This document shows, piece after piece, positions 8,657-15,771 of a stretch of 64,000 bases of DNA. This DNA is from a bacterium (GTDB lineage Bacteria > Planctomycetota > Planctomycetia > Kolteriales > Kolteriaceae), in NCBI GenBank assembly GCA_019753235.1, contig JAIELF010000001.1, forward strand, positions 1-64,000, written 5' to 3'. Within the stretch, counting starts at the first letter, position 1. Each line of letters starts with the position of its first letter. The position numbers and the translations under genes were made by a program. The notes below the pieces were generated by a model, which saw only the letters and a program-made list of their open reading frames with translations, searched no databases and was not told where the DNA came from.

Positions 8657-9292
8657 ATGAAGGCTTCGGAGAAGACGTGGGGAATCGTTCTCGCGGGGGG
8701 GGAAAGTCGTCGCATGGGTCAGGCGAAGGAACGCCTTCTTCTGGGTCAGGAAACGCTGTTGCAACTGACCTCGCGGATTCTGATCCCCTTGGTGCAAGAG
8801 ATCGTTGTGGTGGCTGCCCCTGATCGAAGCGATGTCGATCTCCCGCAACGGTGTCGTCTTGTCCACGACCCGTTCCCCTTCCGGGGGCCGTTGGCGGGTC
8901 TGGTTGCCGGCCTGAGCGGAGTGAAGCGTCAGGCGGGCGATCCCGCATGGGTCATCGTCGTACCATGCGATCATCCCGGCATGACAACGCCTATGCTCAA
9001 GCGTTTATGGGAAGCTCGTTCGGATGATGTTGATGCGGTCGCCATCCAGAAGGACGACATGTGTCTGCCACTGCCGGGCATCTATCACACTCGTCTTTTG
9101 GACAAGGCTATCGAGCTTGCCGAGGTATCTTCGCACGGGCTCAAGCATTTGCTCGAACAATCTCGAACCAGGTTGCTGTCGGCGGAGGATCTACGCAAGG
9201 TCGATCCAGATCTGCTCGGCTTGCAGAGTGTCGATTCGCCTCGCCAATGGGAGGAGTTTCTCCGCCAGCATCCCCGCACAAGCGCGACCTAG
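8657..9292 (+). CDS. mobA: Molybdenum cofactor guanylyltransferase (MobA-like)
   Basis: 211 residues. MobA attaches GMP from GTP to molybdopterin to give the MGD cofactor. The N-terminal nucleotide-binding signature is GIVLAGGESRRMGQAKE; LVHDPFPFRGPLAGLVAG and the metal-binding region WVIVVPCDHPGM follow in the expected order. GGGAG precedes the ATG. It stands alone, divergent from the DUF1080 gene (199 bp apart) and convergent with the STAS gene. No other Mo-cofactor gene is nearby, so the identity rests on the protein itself; a related NTP-transferase is possible but less likely. Confidence 0.85.
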   Translation: MKASEKTWGIVLAGGESRRMGQAKERLLLGQETLLQLTSRILIPLVQEIVVVAAPDRSDVDLPQRCRLVHDPFPFRGPLAGLVAGLSGVKRQAGDPAWVIVVPCDHPGMTTPMLKRLWEARSDDVDAVAIQKDDMCLPLPGIYHTRLLDKAIELAEVSSHGLKHLLEQSRTRLLSAEDLRKVDPDLLGLQSVDSPRQWEEFLRQHPRTSAT

Positions 9293-9321: not shown

Positions 9322-9696
9322 TCAAGATGTCGCTCGAATGTGCAGGGATTCGTTGGCCTGCATTTGCGATAAACAGGAAGCAACGTCGGGCAAGATATCC
9401 CACAGCGTAGTCAATCGAGCAGTCTCCAGAATCTCTCGGCAATCAGGATGCAGGGAGCAGAGAAAGAATTGTCCGCCGGCCGCATGCGTTCTCTTCCAGA
9501 GGCGAAAGAGAACCTCGAAGAAAACCGAGCCAAAATACGCGGTCCGTTGAAAATCGAGAATGAGATTAGCGGTGTTGGCGTCGTCAAGAACTCGGATGAT
9601 CTCTTCTTCGGTCTCGTTCAGCATCGACTCTTGAAACGCGCTGTATTCGGCACCGAGTCGAACGATCGTCGCGATGGGCAACAGCTCGATTTCCAT
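9322..9696 (-). CDS. STAS-domain protein (anti-sigma factor antagonist-like)
   Basis: 124 residues covering a single STAS domain: a strand/helix start with IATIVRLGAEYS, the central NLILDFQRTAYFGSVFFEVL and AGGQFFLCSLHPDCREIL. In SpoIIAA-type proteins the central loop reads DSSG with the second Ser phosphorylated. Here the loop reads GSV, so the first Ser is kept but the usual phosphorylated position is Val. It may therefore bind partners without the classical phosphorylation switch (inference). AAGGA precedes the ATG. It lies 62 bp downstream of nqrF and may be read from the same transcript. Confidence 0.75.
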   Translation of the reverse strand: MEIELLPIATIVRLGAEYSAFQESMLNETEEEIIRVLDDANTANLILDFQRTAYFGSVFFEVLFRLWKRTHAAGGQFFLCSLHPDCREILETARLTTLWDILPDVASCLSQMQANESLHIRATS

Positions 9697-9758: not shown

Positions 9759-10970
9759 TTAGCCGAAAGAGTCGTAAGCAATCATCTCTTTTTCCACCCC
9801 GAGATCAAACAACATCTTGTTGACAGCGCTGATCATGGGTGGAGGCCCACATAGATAATACTCACACTCTTCGGGGCTGTCGTGCTTCGAGAGATAAAGG
9901 TCGTTACAAACTTGATGAATGAACCCCGTCGGGCCCTTCCAGTTATCCTCGGGCATGGGCTCGGAAAGGGCCAGATTGAACTTAAAGTTCGGAAACTCTG
10001 CTTCAATCTTCTTGAAATCTTCCCAGTAGAACATCTCGCGAAGCGATCGAGCCCCGTACCAATAGCTGACCTTTCGGCCTGTCTTAAGCGTGTGAAACAG
10101 GTGCATGATGTGGGCCCGCAACGGCGCCATCCCCGCACCGCCACCGATGTAGACCATCTCGCGATTTGTATCTTTGATAAAGAACTCGCCGTAGGGGCCA
10201 CTGATCGTCACCTTGTCGCCCGGCTTCAAGTTGAAGATATACGACGAGGCGATACCTGGGGGAGCGTCCGGCAACCGAGGCGGAGGAGTCGCTACGCGAA
10301 CGTTCAGCATCACCCGGTTCCCCTCGGCAGGGTGATTGGCCATTGAATAAGCGCGAAAGACTTCTTCCTTATTCGACGCGTGATAGCGCCAAAGGTTGTA
10401 CTTGTCCCAGTCGCCGTGATACTCCTTCGCGATTTCAAAGTTCTTGTAATCGATCTCGTAAGGAGGGATGTAAATCTGAATGTATCCCCCCGACTTAAAG
10501 TGAAGAACATCAGGCAGATCAAGAACCAGTTCTTTGATAAAGGTCGCTACGTTATGGTTTGATCGAACCGTCGCAACGAACTTCTTAATACTGAAGATTT
10601 CTTCTGGGACGGCAATCTTCATGGGTTGACGAACTTTGACCTGACAACCGAGCCGCCAATTCTCCTTGGCGGCAACACGGTTGATGTGGCCGGTCTCGGT
10701 GGGAAGAATGTTCCCCCCTCCTTCGAAGACCTGACATTTGCACATGGCGCACGTACCACCACCGCCGCACGCGGAGGGAAGGAATAGTTTCTCGCCCGCC
10801 AAGGCCGACAGCAGGGTTTGCCCCGTTTCGACCTCGATCGTCTTCTCGTCATTGACGAGGATTTTGACTTTTCCTTTTTTCACCAGGGCCGACTCGACCA
10901 GGGTCAACACCCCCACGAGCGCGACAATGACCACCGTGAAGACTGCGACGCCTGCTATCACCGTCAACAT
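9759..10970 (-). CDS. nqrF: Na+-translocating NADH:quinone oxidoreductase subunit F
   Basis: 403 residues. NqrF takes electrons from NADH and passes them through FAD and a [2Fe-2S] centre into the Na+-pumping complex. One N-terminal transmembrane helix (~residues 3-27) is followed by a plant-type ferredoxin domain with Cys68, Cys74, Cys77 and Cys109, then a ferredoxin-reductase domain with RAYSMANHP (FAD), [12 protein letters not shown] (NADH) and a C-terminal CGPPPMISA motif. I use ATG at 10970 because the product then aligns in length with known NqrF; a TTG at 11003 would add 11 residues without a good ribosome site. Last nqr gene of the operon. Confidence 0.96.
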
Positions 10971-11028
10971 GATCTTGGCCCATCCCCGAGAAGAAAGGAG
11001 CAACCCCGTTGGTCCACTTCAAACTCGC

Positions 11029-11658
11029 TTAAAGCTGAATCCCAGCAAAGCACATGAACGCCATCGACATCAACCCGGTCAGCAGAAAGGTGATTCCCAA
11101 TCCGCGAAGACCCTTCGGCACGTTCGAGTATCGAATCTTTTGGCGAATGGCGGCCAGCGAGATAATCGCGAGCGCCCAACCCACGCCCGAACCGAACCCG
11201 AAGACACACGATTCGGCAAAGTTGTAATCGCGCTGCTGCATAAAGAGAGCCGCCCCCAAGATGCAGCAGTTAACAGCAATCAACGGGAGGAAGATCCCCA
11301 GTGCCGCGTAAAGGGTGGGGCTGAAGCGATCCAGAGCCATCTCGACGATTTGCGTGAGAGCCGCAATCACTGCGATAAAGCTGATGAAACTTAGAAACTC
11401 CAGATTCACGGTGGCGTACTGCGTCCCGAGGAAGTTGGCGAGCTTACCCTCTTTGAGAAGAAGATTCAGAATCGCCCAATTGAGCGGAACGCTGATCGTC
11501 AGAACGAACGTCACCGCCATCCCCAGACCCACGGCCGTGTCAACCTTCTTCGAACAGGCAAGGAACGAACACATCCCAAGGAAGAATGCCAACAGGATGT
11601 TTTCGACGAAGACGCTCTTCACGAGCAAGCTAACCAGATGGATGATTTGATCGTTCAC
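11029..11658 (-). CDS. nqrE: Na+-translocating NADH:quinone oxidoreductase subunit E
   Basis: 209 residues, almost entirely hydrophobic, with about six transmembrane helices. NqrE and NqrD form the inverted-repeat membrane core that holds a metal or iron-sulfur centre between conserved cysteines. These are present as the Cys in LGMCSFLAC and in [11 protein letters not shown]. The start is GTG, preceded by AAGGAA. The gene lies between nqrD and nqrF on the same strand with short gaps. Confidence 0.96.
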
Positions 11659-11717
11659 GGTCGCGATTCCTTATTGGAAGATCTCTCTGCCAAAACAGCG
11701 GTACAAAACGGACAAGA

Positions 11718-12338
11718 TCAATCGATCACCTTGTTCGAGATCGCCCGTTGCAACCAAACAAGCAGGCCGAGAATGATGAACGCGCCCGGCGGCAAAAGCA
11801 TCAGTCCGAAATTCTGATAGCCGGCATCGTAGAACGCTTGCGGCACCACCTTGAAACCCAAGATCGCTCCGTTGCCCAGTATCTCTCGCACGGTAGCGAC
11901 CACCACCAAAACGCCGCTGTAGCCCAGCGAATTTCCCAGGCCATCTAAAAAGCTGGGCCAGGGGGGATTGCTCATCGCAAAGGCTTCCAGTCGCCCCATC
12001 ACGATGCAATTGGTGATGATGAGACCGACAAAAACACTCAGATCTTTGCTCTGCTCGTAGAGGTACGCCCGGAGCAACTGATCAATCATGATGACCAGGG
12101 CCGACACCACCGATAGCTGAACGATGATGCGGACTTTGTTCGGGATATAGTTGCGCATCAACGAGATGGTGACGTTCGACAGACATACAACAAACGTCAC
12201 GCCCGCGGCCATGATCAATGAGGGGACGAGCTGCGTCGTGACGGCCAAGCTCGAACAAATCCCCAGCACTTGAAACATGACCGGGTTCGAATCCCAAAGG
12301 GGATCGGTCAAGACCGACAAGTTTCCTTTTTTGGCCAT
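11718..12338 (-). CDS. nqrD: Na+-translocating NADH:quinone oxidoreductase subunit D
   Basis: 206 residues with about six transmembrane helices; paralogue and partner of NqrE. Family landmarks: DPLWDSNPVMFQVLGICSSL near the N-terminus with the core-centre Cys, IITNCIVMGRLEAFA with the second Cys, and PPGAFIILGL near the C-terminus. ATG start with GGGAG about 11 bp upstream. The order nqrC-nqrD-nqrE is that of the standard operon. Confidence 0.96.
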   Translation of the reverse strand: MAKKGNLSVLTDPLWDSNPVMFQVLGICSSLAVTTQLVPSLIMAAGVTFVVCLSNVTISLMRNYIPNKVRIIVQLSVVSALVIMIDQLLRAYLYEQSKDLSVFVGLIITNCIVMGRLEAFAMSNPPWPSFLDGLGNSLGYSGVLVVVATVREILGNGAILGFKVVPQAFYDAGYQNFGLMLLPPGAFIILGLLVWLQRAISNKVID

Positions 12339-12444
12339 GAGCCCATTCTCCCAGTCTTTGATCCATCACCAATCAACAGTCGGTTCGGCAACCATGCTTC
12401 CGAATGATCGCGTTCTCGTTCGAGCCGCGATCAAAACGCTGCCG

Positions 12445-13191
12445 TCAACCTTTACTCCAGACCGACTTCTCGAAGTACGGCCGATACAGATTCATCATGT
12501 CGACAATCATCTTCTGCACGCCGCGACCCGTGATTGTCGCCCCGCTGATGCCACCGACTTCGGTCGCATTGGGATAAGGGGTTGACGAGGGCCTGCCGAC
12601 GGTGAAGGTGATATCGTTGGCTTCGTTCAAGTACGATTTCTTCACGAATTGGTCTTGGAACCAAGGCTTGGTGATCTCTTTGCCCAAGCCTGGCGTTTCA
12701 CCTTCCTTGTAGAAGACCAGGTTCCGAATCGTTTTGCCATCGGCTTCAAGCGAAAGGTACCCGAAGAGGTCTGACCAAAGACCTTTGCCGTAGACCGGCA
12801 CGATGAAAGCGTCGATTTTGCCCTCCTTGCTGACAGTGTAGAGGGGATACTCTCGCTTCTCCTTTTCAATGTAGCCGGGGGTTCCCTTGAGGACCTTGTC
12901 TTGCTTGAGAACCGCTTCGGGGGTCAGGTTGGTCTCTTTCGACGTCACTTCCCCCTGCACGTTCACAAGGATTCCCGCGATCCCCTCTTGATAGAGCTTC
13001 TCGACCTCTTGGGGCGAAATGGAGGCTCCTCGTTCGATCAGCCCCCCCGCGAGAAGAACGTTCTTATACGTGTCGATCCTCTCAGCGAACTCCTGCTGCG
13101 ACTTTAATGCTGACGCGGCCCCGGCCACGATCAAGGCGCAGCCGATACAGACGAGCGTGATGAAAAAGAAGGTGTAGGTGTTACCTCGCAT
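12445..13191 (-). CDS. nqrC: Na+-translocating NADH:quinone oxidoreductase subunit C
   Basis: 248 residues: one N-terminal transmembrane helix (YTFFFITLVCIGCALIVAG) and a periplasmic flavin domain. The covalent FMN motif is seen as GGISGATITGRG, with Thr in the SGAT context. ATG at 13191 is chosen over an upstream start at 13230: a GGAGGA ribosome site lies just upstream, and the gene then overlaps the end of nqrB by 11 bp, a normal coupling arrangement. The sequence GETPGLGKEI is also typical of NqrC. Confidence 0.96.
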   Translation of the reverse strand: MRGNTYTFFFITLVCIGCALIVAGAASALKSQQEFAERIDTYKNVLLAGGLIERGASISPQEVEKLYQEGIAGILVNVQGEVTSKETNLTPEAVLKQDKVLKGTPGYIEKEKREYPLYTVSKEGKIDAFIVPVYGKGLWSDLFGYLSLEADGKTIRNLVFYKEGETPGLGKEITKPWFQDQFVKKSYLNEANDITFTVGRPSSTPYPNATEVGGISGATITGRGVQKMIVDMMNLYRPYFEKSVWSKG

Positions 13192-14416
13192 AGGCCAGCT
13201 TCCTCCTCTTAATGTTGGCCTGCACGACATAGTGGTCGATCAGCGGCGCAAATAGGTTCAGGAACAAAATCGCCAGCATGAATCCTTCGGGATAGGCAGG
13301 ATTCACCGTTCGAATCAAGACCGCCAAAGCGCCGATCAGCGTCCCGTAGATCCATTTACCCGTGCTTGTCCAAGCGCTCGACACTGGGTCGGTCGCCATA
13401 TACACGGCGGCAAAAGCCATGCTTCCAACCACGAAGTGCCAATAGAATGGTAGGCCCATGGTCGGACGGGCGTTCGCTCCACCCGCAAAGTAGTTCATGA
13501 TGAACGCCATCAAGGTGGTCCCCAACGCGACCCCCAGCATCGTTCGGTAGCTACCGACGCCAGTCGCAATCAAGATGACCGCTCCGATCAAGCATGCCAA
13601 TGCCGATGTTTCGCCGATACTCCCCGCGTCGAATCCGAGAAAGCAATTCCACCATGAGAAATCGATGTGCTTAAATGTCTGGTTGATCTGCATCAAGGAC
13701 TCGGCCGCGGAGAGATCGCCGTGATGCTGCGAGGCGTGAAGCAAAGGGGTCGCGCCGGTGTAGCCATCCACGAATTCGGGTCGAGCGCCACCCTTGGTGA
13801 AGAACTCCGTCCATGTTTGTCGTTCGGTCCAAACCAGATCGCCGGACATCTTGTCGGGAAAGGTGAAGAAGCAGAACGCCCGCGCGGTGAGAGCCGGGTT
13901 AAAGACGTTCATCCCTGTCCCACCGAAAACTTCCTTGCCGATCACGACACCGAAGCTGACACCGACGGCGACCTGCCAAAGTGGAATCGTCGGCGGGCAC
14001 GTCATGGGGAAAAGCAAACCAGTGACTAAGAACCCTTCATTGATTTCGTGACGACGAACGACCGCAAAGAGTGCTTCCCATGCGCCGCCGACCGCGTAGG
14101 AGACGATGATGATCGGCATGCAGATTTCAAGGCCCGCCCAGAAGCTTGGCGCAAAGCCGGGATCGGCACCCGTCGTCCCAAGATAATGCTGGTAGCCCGC
14201 GTTCCAAATCCCCATGAAAAGCGGGGGGAGAAGCGCGACGATCACGGTCATCATGAATCGTTTCGAATCGAGCCAATCGCGAATGTGAGCCCCCGCATGG
14301 GTCACCGTCGCGGGCGTCCGAAGAAACGTATCGGGCGCATCCAGCAAGGGCCAAAGCATCCCTAGCCGGCCCCCTTCGTCGTGCGATTTTTTGACCTGTT
14401 CGAAGAAACTGGCCAC
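13181..14416 (-). CDS. nqrB: Na+-translocating NADH:quinone oxidoreductase subunit B
   Basis: 411 residues from a GTG start preceded by AAGGAAGG. NqrB is a polytopic membrane subunit carrying a covalent FMN on a Thr; the site appears as DGYTGATPL. About ten hydrophobic helices, including MNVFNPALTARAF and YMATDPVSSAWTSTGKWIYG, match the family. An open frame continues upstream to 14677 but overlaps nqrA and is Arg/Ser-rich, unlike NqrB. The GTG lies 6 bp after the nqrA stop. Confidence 0.96.
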   Translation of the reverse strand: MASFFEQVKKSHDEGGRLGMLWPLLDAPDTFLRTPATVTHAGAHIRDWLDSKRFMMTVIVALLPPLFMGIWNAGYQHYLGTTGADPGFAPSFWAGLEICMPIIIVSYAVGGAWEALFAVVRRHEINEGFLVTGLLFPMTCPPTIPLWQVAVGVSFGVVIGKEVFGGTGMNVFNPALTARAFCFFTFPDKMSGDLVWTERQTWTEFFTKGGARPEFVDGYTGATPLLHASQHHGDLSAAESLMQINQTFKHIDFSWWNCFLGFDAGSIGETSALACLIGAVILIATGVGSYRTMLGVALGTTLMAFIMNYFAGGANARPTMGLPFYWHFVVGSMAFAAVYMATDPVSSAWTSTGKWIYGTLIGALAVLIRTVNPAYPEGFMLAILFLNLFAPLIDHYVVQANIKRRKLAYAR

Positions 14417-14421
14417 GGTCG

Positions 14422-15771
14422 TTAACCTTCCTTCTGAATCTTGGCGAGACCTGCTTCCAAAATACTGTCGATCTCGATCTTCGATGGACAAACATAGGTG
14501 CACAGACCGCATCCGATGCAGTCGGTGATCCCCAATTGCTCTGCCTCTTCCAGATCGCCGTAACTGACTGCCTTCCACGTCGGCAGCGCGAGAACCTCCG
14601 TCGGGCAGACATCGTTGCAGAAGCCACACTGAATGCACGCGCGGTGTCCGCCGTGCAGGTTCGTATCGACTTGCCACTCCGTCGAAGGAGGCTTGAGTGC
14701 GGAAAGGAACGTCCGCGAATAACTGTGTTTATCCAGGCCGGGCAGCAACCATCCGAGAATCTCGCGTTGACGACCCTCTGGAACCACCGTGATCTGTGAA
14801 TCGAAAAATCCGATCGGCTCGCTATCGGCGATCTTGCTGCCAGTGAGGATGTCCCCACTGATGATTCGCTGTTCGCCCGCCACTAGCTTGCCAGAAAGCA
14901 ATATCCCCACCATGACGCCGGCACGAGTGCGGTAGTGCTTGCGATGAGCGGGCGCGATGCCAGGGCCGGCCAGCGAGACGATCCGCTCGCTGCTGATTTT
15001 GCCCGTCTGCATCAACTTGCCGATGGCGATGACATCTTGAATGTCGACGTACCAGATCACTTCGCCGGCACGAACACGGTCGATGTAATACGCCTGCAGC
15101 GGAGCGCTTCCCGCCGGGTGCTTGCCACTTACCGAATGAGATTCCACCGACGTGGCCGAGGTGATCTCCGGGGCGACCGTGCCACGGGCGGGCTTCGAAA
15201 GATGAACCCGGCCCGAAGTAAGCTTGGCCAGTGCCGCCAAGCCTGCATTGAGGGCCTCCCCCTTCCCTGCCACGGCCAGATTCAGATCAATCCCCATCGG
15301 CGCGCTACTGAAGCCCGAAACGAAAATCCCTTTCGGGGTATCCGTGGGGCTGGCCATCCGAGCGAACGGATGCTGGCGGATCTTCGCGAATAATCCACTC
15401 GCCAAAAGCTTGCCCAGAACTTGCTCTCGGCTTGCGGTCGGGAGCGATGTCGTCCCGAAGTCGACCGACTGCTCGTTCGGCTCGACATTGATGATGATTT
15501 GGAGGAGTTTGCGACGATCGCCGCGACGAACCTCGGCAACTTTGCCGCCGGCGGGCGAGGTAAATTTGATGTCGGGGTTCGACTTAAGCTCCATCAAGGG
15601 AGACCCGACCTGAACCGGATCCCCATCCTTGACCAGCACCCTCAGCTTGAGTTCCCCCAGGTCCGAGGGTCGAATCGCGACCTGCTTCGGAAAGGGGGCG
15701 TCGACCACCTGGGCGTCGGACTTCCCCGCTAGGTGAAGGTTGTAACCCCGTTTCACTTTGATCTCGGCCAT
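14422..15771 (-). CDS. nqrA: Na+-translocating NADH:quinone oxidoreductase subunit A with two 4Fe-4S motifs
   Basis: 449 residues, first gene of nqrABCDEF. NqrA is the large peripheral subunit implicated in quinone binding, homologous to RnfC. The body is typical (KVKRGYNLHLAG at the N-terminus, KFTSPAGGKVAEVRRG, HPAGSAPLQAYYIDRV, IISGDILTGSKIA). The C-terminus, unlike the NqrA of Vibrio as I recall it, holds two complete ferredoxin motifs: Cys379-382-385-389 and Cys418-421-424-428, both CxxCxxCxxxCP. They resemble the RnfC ferredoxin region, so this subunit probably binds two 4Fe-4S clusters (inference). ATG at 15771 follows GAGGA; the open frame extends to 15888 without family resemblance. 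Confidence 0.93.
   Translation of the reverse strand: MAEIKVKRGYNLHLAGKSDAQVVDAPFPKQVAIRPSDLGELKLRVLVKDGDPVQVGSPLMELKSNPDIKFTSPAGGKVAEVRRGDRRKLLQIIINVEPNEQSVDFGTTSLPTASREQVLGKLLASGLFAKIRQHPFARMASPTDTPKGIFVSGFSSAPMGIDLNLAVAGKGEALNAGLAALAKLTSGRVHLSKPARGTVAPEITSATSVESHSVSGKHPAGSAPLQAYYIDRVRAGEVIWYVDIQDVIAIGKLMQTGKISSERIVSLAGPGIAPAHRKHYRTRAGVMVGILLSGKLVAGEQRIISGDILTGSKIADSEPIGFFDSQITVVPEGRQREILGWLLPGLDKHSYSRTFLSALKPPSTEWQVDTNLHGGHRACIQCGFCNDVCPTEVLALPTWKAVSYGDLEEAEQLGITDCIGCGLCTYVCPSKIEIDSILEAGLAKIQKEG

Follow-up and report, generated by a model that had tools for sequence, protein, structure and literature searches.

The window analysed here, a 64,000-nucleotide stretch of contig JAIELF010000001.1 from a planctomycete of the family Kolteriaceae, carries a complete nqrABCDEF operon of six contiguous genes on the minus strand (9759-15771), and all six encoded subunits exceed at least one curated NQR cut-off. 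Downstream of nqrA lie nqrB (13181-14416, GTG start), nqrC (12445-13230), whose product has an SGAT flavinylation motif, nqrD (11718-12338), nqrE (11029-11658), and nqrF (9759-11003). Membrane cysteines are found in GICSS and TNCIV segments of NqrD, which we take to be the counterparts of the V. cholerae [2Fe-2S] ligands, and in GMCSF and VNCCI segments of NqrE. NqrF scores 609.6 bits against TIGR01941 and comprises 2Fe-2S ferredoxin and FAD/NADH reductase domains (Fer2, FAD_binding_6, and NAD_binding_1), making it the sole input module of the operon, in which no RnfB-like gene was found. In NqrB, the FMN threonine T236 and the riboflavin aspartate D346 (V. cholerae numbering, as below) are conserved. 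Its N-terminal quinone arm, which E. coli RnfD lacks, is present; among the quinone-contact residues described for V. cholerae (PMC10643135), L26, A29, G141, N156, and F159 are kept, while L33 is replaced by F and F160 by L, as in several ordinary NQRs. The six-gene order, the NqrF input module, the flavin and quinone sites of NqrB and NqrC, and the homology and fold of NqrA are thus shared with the Na+-NQR of Vibrio cholerae (PDB 8A1U, 7XK3). The presence of NqrF, the absence of RnfB, and the subunit profile scores rule out a misannotated RNF, and by these features the complex is a variant of Na+-NQR, as originally predicted. Beyond the operon, a gene for a STAS-domain protein lies directly downstream of nqrF (9322-9696, minus strand), followed by one for a MobA-like nucleotidyltransferase (8657-9292, plus strand). 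The draft host genome (92.6% complete) contains three ApbE genes, the complex I 49-kDa subunit, three COX1 genes, and one POR_N protein of the 2-oxoacid:ferredoxin-oxidoreductase type; no RNF was detected in it, nor any RnfC beyond the Fe-S domain of NqrA itself. The host is therefore an organism with genes for oxygen respiration, an NQR, and no detected RNF at this level of completeness.

The nqrA gene (14422-15771, minus strand; ATG at 15771, TAA at 14422-14424) encodes a protein of 449 residues that contains eight cysteines in total, all of which occupy ligand positions of two CxxCxxCxxxCP motifs. Motif 1 comprises Cys379, Cys382, Cys385, and Cys389 (CIQCGFCNDVCP; 14605-14637, minus strand) and motif 2 comprises Cys418, Cys421, Cys424, and Cys428 (CIGCGLCTYVCP; 14488-14520, minus strand), each cysteine being encoded by TGC or TGT. 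Pfam dicluster Fer4 domains score above their cut-offs at residues ~378-432, and both motifs sit in the domain that holds two [4Fe-4S] clusters in RnfC. The protein is nonetheless a genuine NqrA, as had been proposed: it scores 394.6 bits against NCBIfam TIGR01936 (cut-off 321) and 465.9 bits against NF003761 (cut-off 450), its alignment with V. cholerae NqrA spans the entire protein (E 4e-73), and the presence of NQRA_N, NQRA_2nd, and NQRA_SLBB marks it as full-length. Its match to RnfC (E 1e-7) aligns the Fe-S domain alone, as does that to the RnfC model TIGR01945, where 69.7 bits fall below the cut-off of 245.95. Searches of its sequence and domains did not find the FMN and NAD features of RnfC (GGAGFPT, ECEP, and PF01512), and sequence comparison showed the FMN motifs GGAGFPT and ECEP to be missing from other Fe-S NqrAs as well. 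An AlphaFold2 model built from an alignment of 84 rows has a pLDDT of 93.9, with blocks of the Fe-S domain at 85-97, and superposes on V. cholerae NqrA with a TM score of 0.94-0.95 and on RnfC (C. tetanomorphum 7ZC6, A. woodii 9ERI, A. vinelandii 8AHX) with 0.70-0.74 (query-normalised). The window complex thus shares with RNF this fold and, at matching positions of the C-terminal domain, a pair of CxxCxxCxxxCP motifs, but differs from it in having NqrF instead of RnfB and in lacking the FMN/NAD motifs of RnfC. V. cholerae NqrA, in contrast, completes neither four-cysteine motif and carries no cofactor. The absence of redox cofactors from NqrA, a descriptive rather than a defining trait in the review literature, would not extend to the window, where both motifs are complete. 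With its ligands intact and constrained and its fold predicted, the window NqrA would very probably bind two [4Fe-4S] clusters.

The cysteines are not common to all NqrAs. We surveyed 392 genomes of Planctomycetota; a complete motif was found in none of the 34 aligned ordinary planctomycete NqrAs and in none of 30 further planctomycete loci, and ordinary NqrA keeps only remnants (e.g. LCTFVCPGK), in line with the original prediction. A scan of viral contigs for ordinary NqrA gave no match. When 84,980 genomes were scanned for the motif-2 pattern CGLC[ST][YF]VCP, at least 542 relatives were returned, and 76 of the best 80 have both motifs, which rules out a unique oddity. Because motif 2 is present in these matches by construction, its frequency is uninformative, while motif 1, lying outside the pattern, is informative: across 79 relatives, conservation is 96% at three of its cysteine columns and 100% at the fourth. 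As these relatives are divergent (all eight cysteines are present in 76 of the 79, which are 27-39% identical to the window NqrA, median 33%), chance does not account for the motifs. Among the best 80 of at least 542, the loci belong mainly to Desulfobacterota, also to Cloacimonadota and to a few MAGs labelled otherwise, and they include the cultured Desulfoluna spongiiphila (L127) and Desulfocicer vacuolatum (L132), each with all eight cysteines. On contigs of sufficient length, the relatives always show an nqrA-F operon with NqrF, and no RnfB match was found in their loci. By these comparisons, the window NqrA is one member of a broad group of Fe-S NQRs that is best represented in Desulfobacterota. 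The complexes of D. spongiiphila and D. vacuolatum are of the same kind, with eight cysteines and nqrA-F, but their NqrAs are just ~31-32% identical to that of the window, which lies nearer to cluster-free NQR in trees. The Rnf of the Desulfobacula toluolica Tol2 type, with a large RnfB and an RnfC without flavin/NAD domain (PMC5109826), shares by description an Fe-S C/A subunit without an NADH site, but has an RnfB with a NAD site where the window has NqrF.

Closer to the window, Kolteria novifilia Pan216, an isolate of the same family that has a complete genome and is facultatively anaerobic (PMC12288469), encodes an NqrA that is 52% identical and retains seven of the eight cysteines, Cys382 being replaced by Ser. 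Five subunits of its orthologous operon are 52-74% identical to those of the window, and NqrC is 41% identical. In three other NqrAs (L056, L057, and L082), motif 2 is kept and motif 1 is reduced to its last cysteine, making them possible one-cluster NqrAs. Judged from Ser382 in Pan216 and the losses in these three proteins, some close relatives can do without motif 1, and the clusters were probably lost more than once, motif 1 alone being gone in L056, L057, and L082. A short, very divergent, plasmid-borne NqrA accompanied by a shortened NqrB (L170, Shinella pShin-01) forms the longest branch in the tree.

Planctomycetes also carry hybrid operons (L042 and L044-L047) in which B, C, D, E, and NqrF come after an A subunit that is about equally similar to RnfC and NqrA and has all eight cysteines. 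The A subunits of two of these, each RnfC-like and combined with NqrF (L042:1863-8064 and L046:5676-12072), score above the cut-offs for RnfC_N and the Nuo51 FMN-binding domain (PF01512), and at least the L042 genome encodes a separate, true RNF besides the hybrid complex. A further NQR-like operon occurs in many genomes of the planctomycete families f49 and f98 (L052:5531-11454, L053:1587-7563); it encodes a short Fe-S A subunit (337-352 aa) without the N-terminal NqrA domain, NqrB/RnfD, NqrC, one protein with two Rnf-Nqr domains (fused D and E, ~485 aa), and a long NqrF-like protein (~550 aa).

Two trees were rooted on RNF, one of the A subunit without its Fe-S domain and one of four subunits (A core, B, D, and E) from 47 taxa. 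Both revealed, in outline, a ladder that leads from RNF through Fe-S hybrids and Fe-S NQRs to the vicinity of the window and cluster-free NQR, which agrees with the original description of the complex as transitional; no grouping with RnfC was seen. The hybrids L046, L042/L047, and L044/L045 form the earliest branches in both trees and are followed by the Desulfobacterota-type and Cloacimonadota Fe-S NQRs, whose mutual order differs between the two. A terminal clade (97/94 in the four-subunit tree) unites the window and Pan216, which pair with a support of 100/100, with the motif-2-only L057 and L082 and the cluster-free NQRs. A single clade of all eight-cysteine NQRs was rejected (AU p 5e-5) in a test that splits the window from Pan216, while placing the two together within the Desulfobacterota-type Fe-S clade gave an AU p of 0.051, which is no clear rejection. 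A position of the window adjoining ordinary NQR, and not inside the Desulfobacterota-type clade, is therefore only just preferred. As RNF and the hybrids have clusters, these would be ancestral and their absence derived under either placement, and the Fe-S clusters of NqrA very probably represent a retention from RNF. The ladder also indicates that the recruitment of NqrF preceded the loss of the clusters. The published scenario has it the other way round: NqrA lost its cofactors directly after RnfB disappeared and before NqrF arrived (PMC4014512, PMC12174285, PMC11889175). Since L042 and L046 combine an FMN-binding domain with clusters, the window and Desulfobacterota proteins have clusters only, and ordinary NqrA has neither, the FMN site is, by this series of sequences, the first of the two to have been lost.

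Two other origins for the motifs were weighed. Fer4 domains of the RnfC type are abundant in the phylum, and an ordinary NqrA could have gained one by recombination, but with the cysteines removed the Fe-S domain of the window scores 0.38 against Fe-S NqrA, 0.36 against ordinary NqrA, and 0.26 against RnfC, and is 71% identical to that of Pan216. Because this domain is more NqrA-like than RnfC-like, a recent swap from RnfC is ruled out. In the tree of the core alone, moreover, the protein lies next to other NqrAs that are Fe-S-bearing or partly eroded, and the stepwise loss of ligands, from CSCCCCCC through motif 2 only to remnants, resembles erosion; a secondary regain is thus very improbable. 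The genome is a draft of 88 contigs with an estimated contamination of 1.8%, but the chance of a chimeric assembly or contaminant is negligible, as the operon has a GC content of 0.557 versus 0.573 for the window, the orthologous operon with seven of eight cysteines occurs in the complete genome of Pan216 from the same family, and 76 independent loci elsewhere (among the best 80 of at least 542 relatives) have both motifs.

We propose, with a probability of roughly 0.6, that the window encodes an early type of Na+-NQR in which the clusters have been retained, with riboflavin as a fork and the clusters serving a soluble partner or electron storage. NADH would enter through NqrF and its electrons would cross the membrane twice to reach the riboflavin of NqrB, as in Vibrio, judging from the conserved sites. 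The C-terminal ferredoxin domain of NqrA, presumably derived from RnfC, would fold around two [4Fe-4S] clusters, and the proximal cluster, placed as in RNF, would lie within electron-transfer distance of the riboflavin; electronic contact between the two is probable on this analogy. Riboflavin passes electrons to an RnfC cluster over 11.7 Å in RNF (PMC9588780) and to quinone over 11.6 Å in Vibrio NQR (PMC10643135). Because the window complex has sequence features of both exits, we infer a side branch at which riboflavin could serve either quinone or a two-cluster wire leading to the cytoplasmic face of NqrA. As the sequence shows the FMN/NAD site of RnfC to be gone, the far end of this wire would no longer meet FMN. 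The wire would most likely store electrons or trade them, in either direction, with a soluble partner. According to the trees, the Fe-S domain would have been kept after NqrF replaced RnfB and lost later in ordinary NQR. Between the window and Pan216, the Fe-S domain is 73% identical and the core 47%; this stronger constraint on the domain argues for its use. Exchange of electrons with an external partner is itself a tentative suggestion, with the odds somewhat against it. When the flank genes of 43 loci were clustered, none was strictly conserved beside the Fe-S nqr operons, and a dedicated partner gene was rejected, as the commonest families occur in only 11-15 of the 43 and are mostly divergent or convergent. 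By eye, a divergent citrate-synthase-like gene lies upstream in Desulfobacterota (e.g. L124, L130, and L078; 15 of 43 loci), and FTR-like and glutaredoxin-like genes lie downstream in opposite orientation in 11 of 43.

The clusters could instead be bound for structural reasons, stabilising the C-terminal domain and the contact of NqrA with NqrB and carrying no physiological current. This would accord with the lack of a conserved partner gene, with the survival of operons in close relatives that have lost motif 1, and with the fold of cluster-free NqrA, which is the same and belongs to a subunit thought to be structural (PMC4014512, PMC12174285). The stability of the ordinary fold without clusters, however, leaves no obvious structural need for them; all eight ligands are retained across very divergent sequences, and current flows through the homologous clusters of RnfC, so that we consider a purely structural role unlikely. 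The original prediction had envisaged a ferredoxin-like donor as a possible further source of electrons; in such a side entrance, the reduced donor would feed the NqrA clusters and, through them, riboflavin and quinone. With a POR_N gene and no detected RNF, reduced ferredoxin may need an outlet, and, as the FMN next in line after the distal cluster of RnfC is absent here, this cluster would be accessible to a partner. Yet no ferredoxin or other partner is linked to the operon, and in RNF electrons run outward through these clusters (PMC9588780, PMC11889175). By analogy with the RNF output side, an electron entering at the NqrA clusters would probably reach quinone without pumping; entry at riboflavin would bypass the Na+-coupled steps, which would be of little benefit in a pump, and we regard such an entrance as quite improbable. 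A side exit, through which NADH electrons would leave by the NqrA clusters for a low-potential soluble acceptor, driven by reverse sodium flow, or for a higher-potential one in parallel to quinone, would preserve the direction of the RNF output module and fit the finding that the Fe-S NQR loci found come most often from anaerobic sulfate reducers. It too appears improbable, as no protein that could act as acceptor was identified, the NAD and FMN sites present in RnfC are missing, and electrons moving from NADH to a low-potential acceptor would have to go uphill.

NqrA has been stated in general terms to have no cofactor (PMC4014512, PMC12174285, PMC9588780, PMC11889175). In reviews and structural studies published until 2025, its cofactors are regarded as lost and no function is assigned to it (PMC4014512, PMC12174285, PMC11889175), and genome papers on sulfate reducers treat their own NQR as ordinary (PMC2702500, PMC4046663). 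No mention of an Fe-S NqrA was found in the open-access literature, subscription papers lying outside the search. It is possible, but doubtful, that Fe-S NQRs make up a class of ion pumps set apart by function, with a branched electron path, in which riboflavin serves both quinone and, via the NqrA clusters, a soluble partner, and which, widespread in Desulfobacterota and scattered over other phyla, gave rise to cluster-free NQR by repeated erosion. Complexes that combine NqrF with an Fe-S A subunit, some with an FMN-binding domain, exist today, so that the order of events can be traced from extant forms, and there is no need to place the root of NQR in Chlorobi/Bacteroidetes. The cultured Desulfoluna spongiiphila AA1 and Desulfocicer vacuolatum DSM 3385 offer hosts for studying the function of NqrA, and Kolteria novifilia Pan216 is a natural variant lacking one cysteine in which its role may be addressed. 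The origin and the purpose of the NqrA subunit are thereby now testable.
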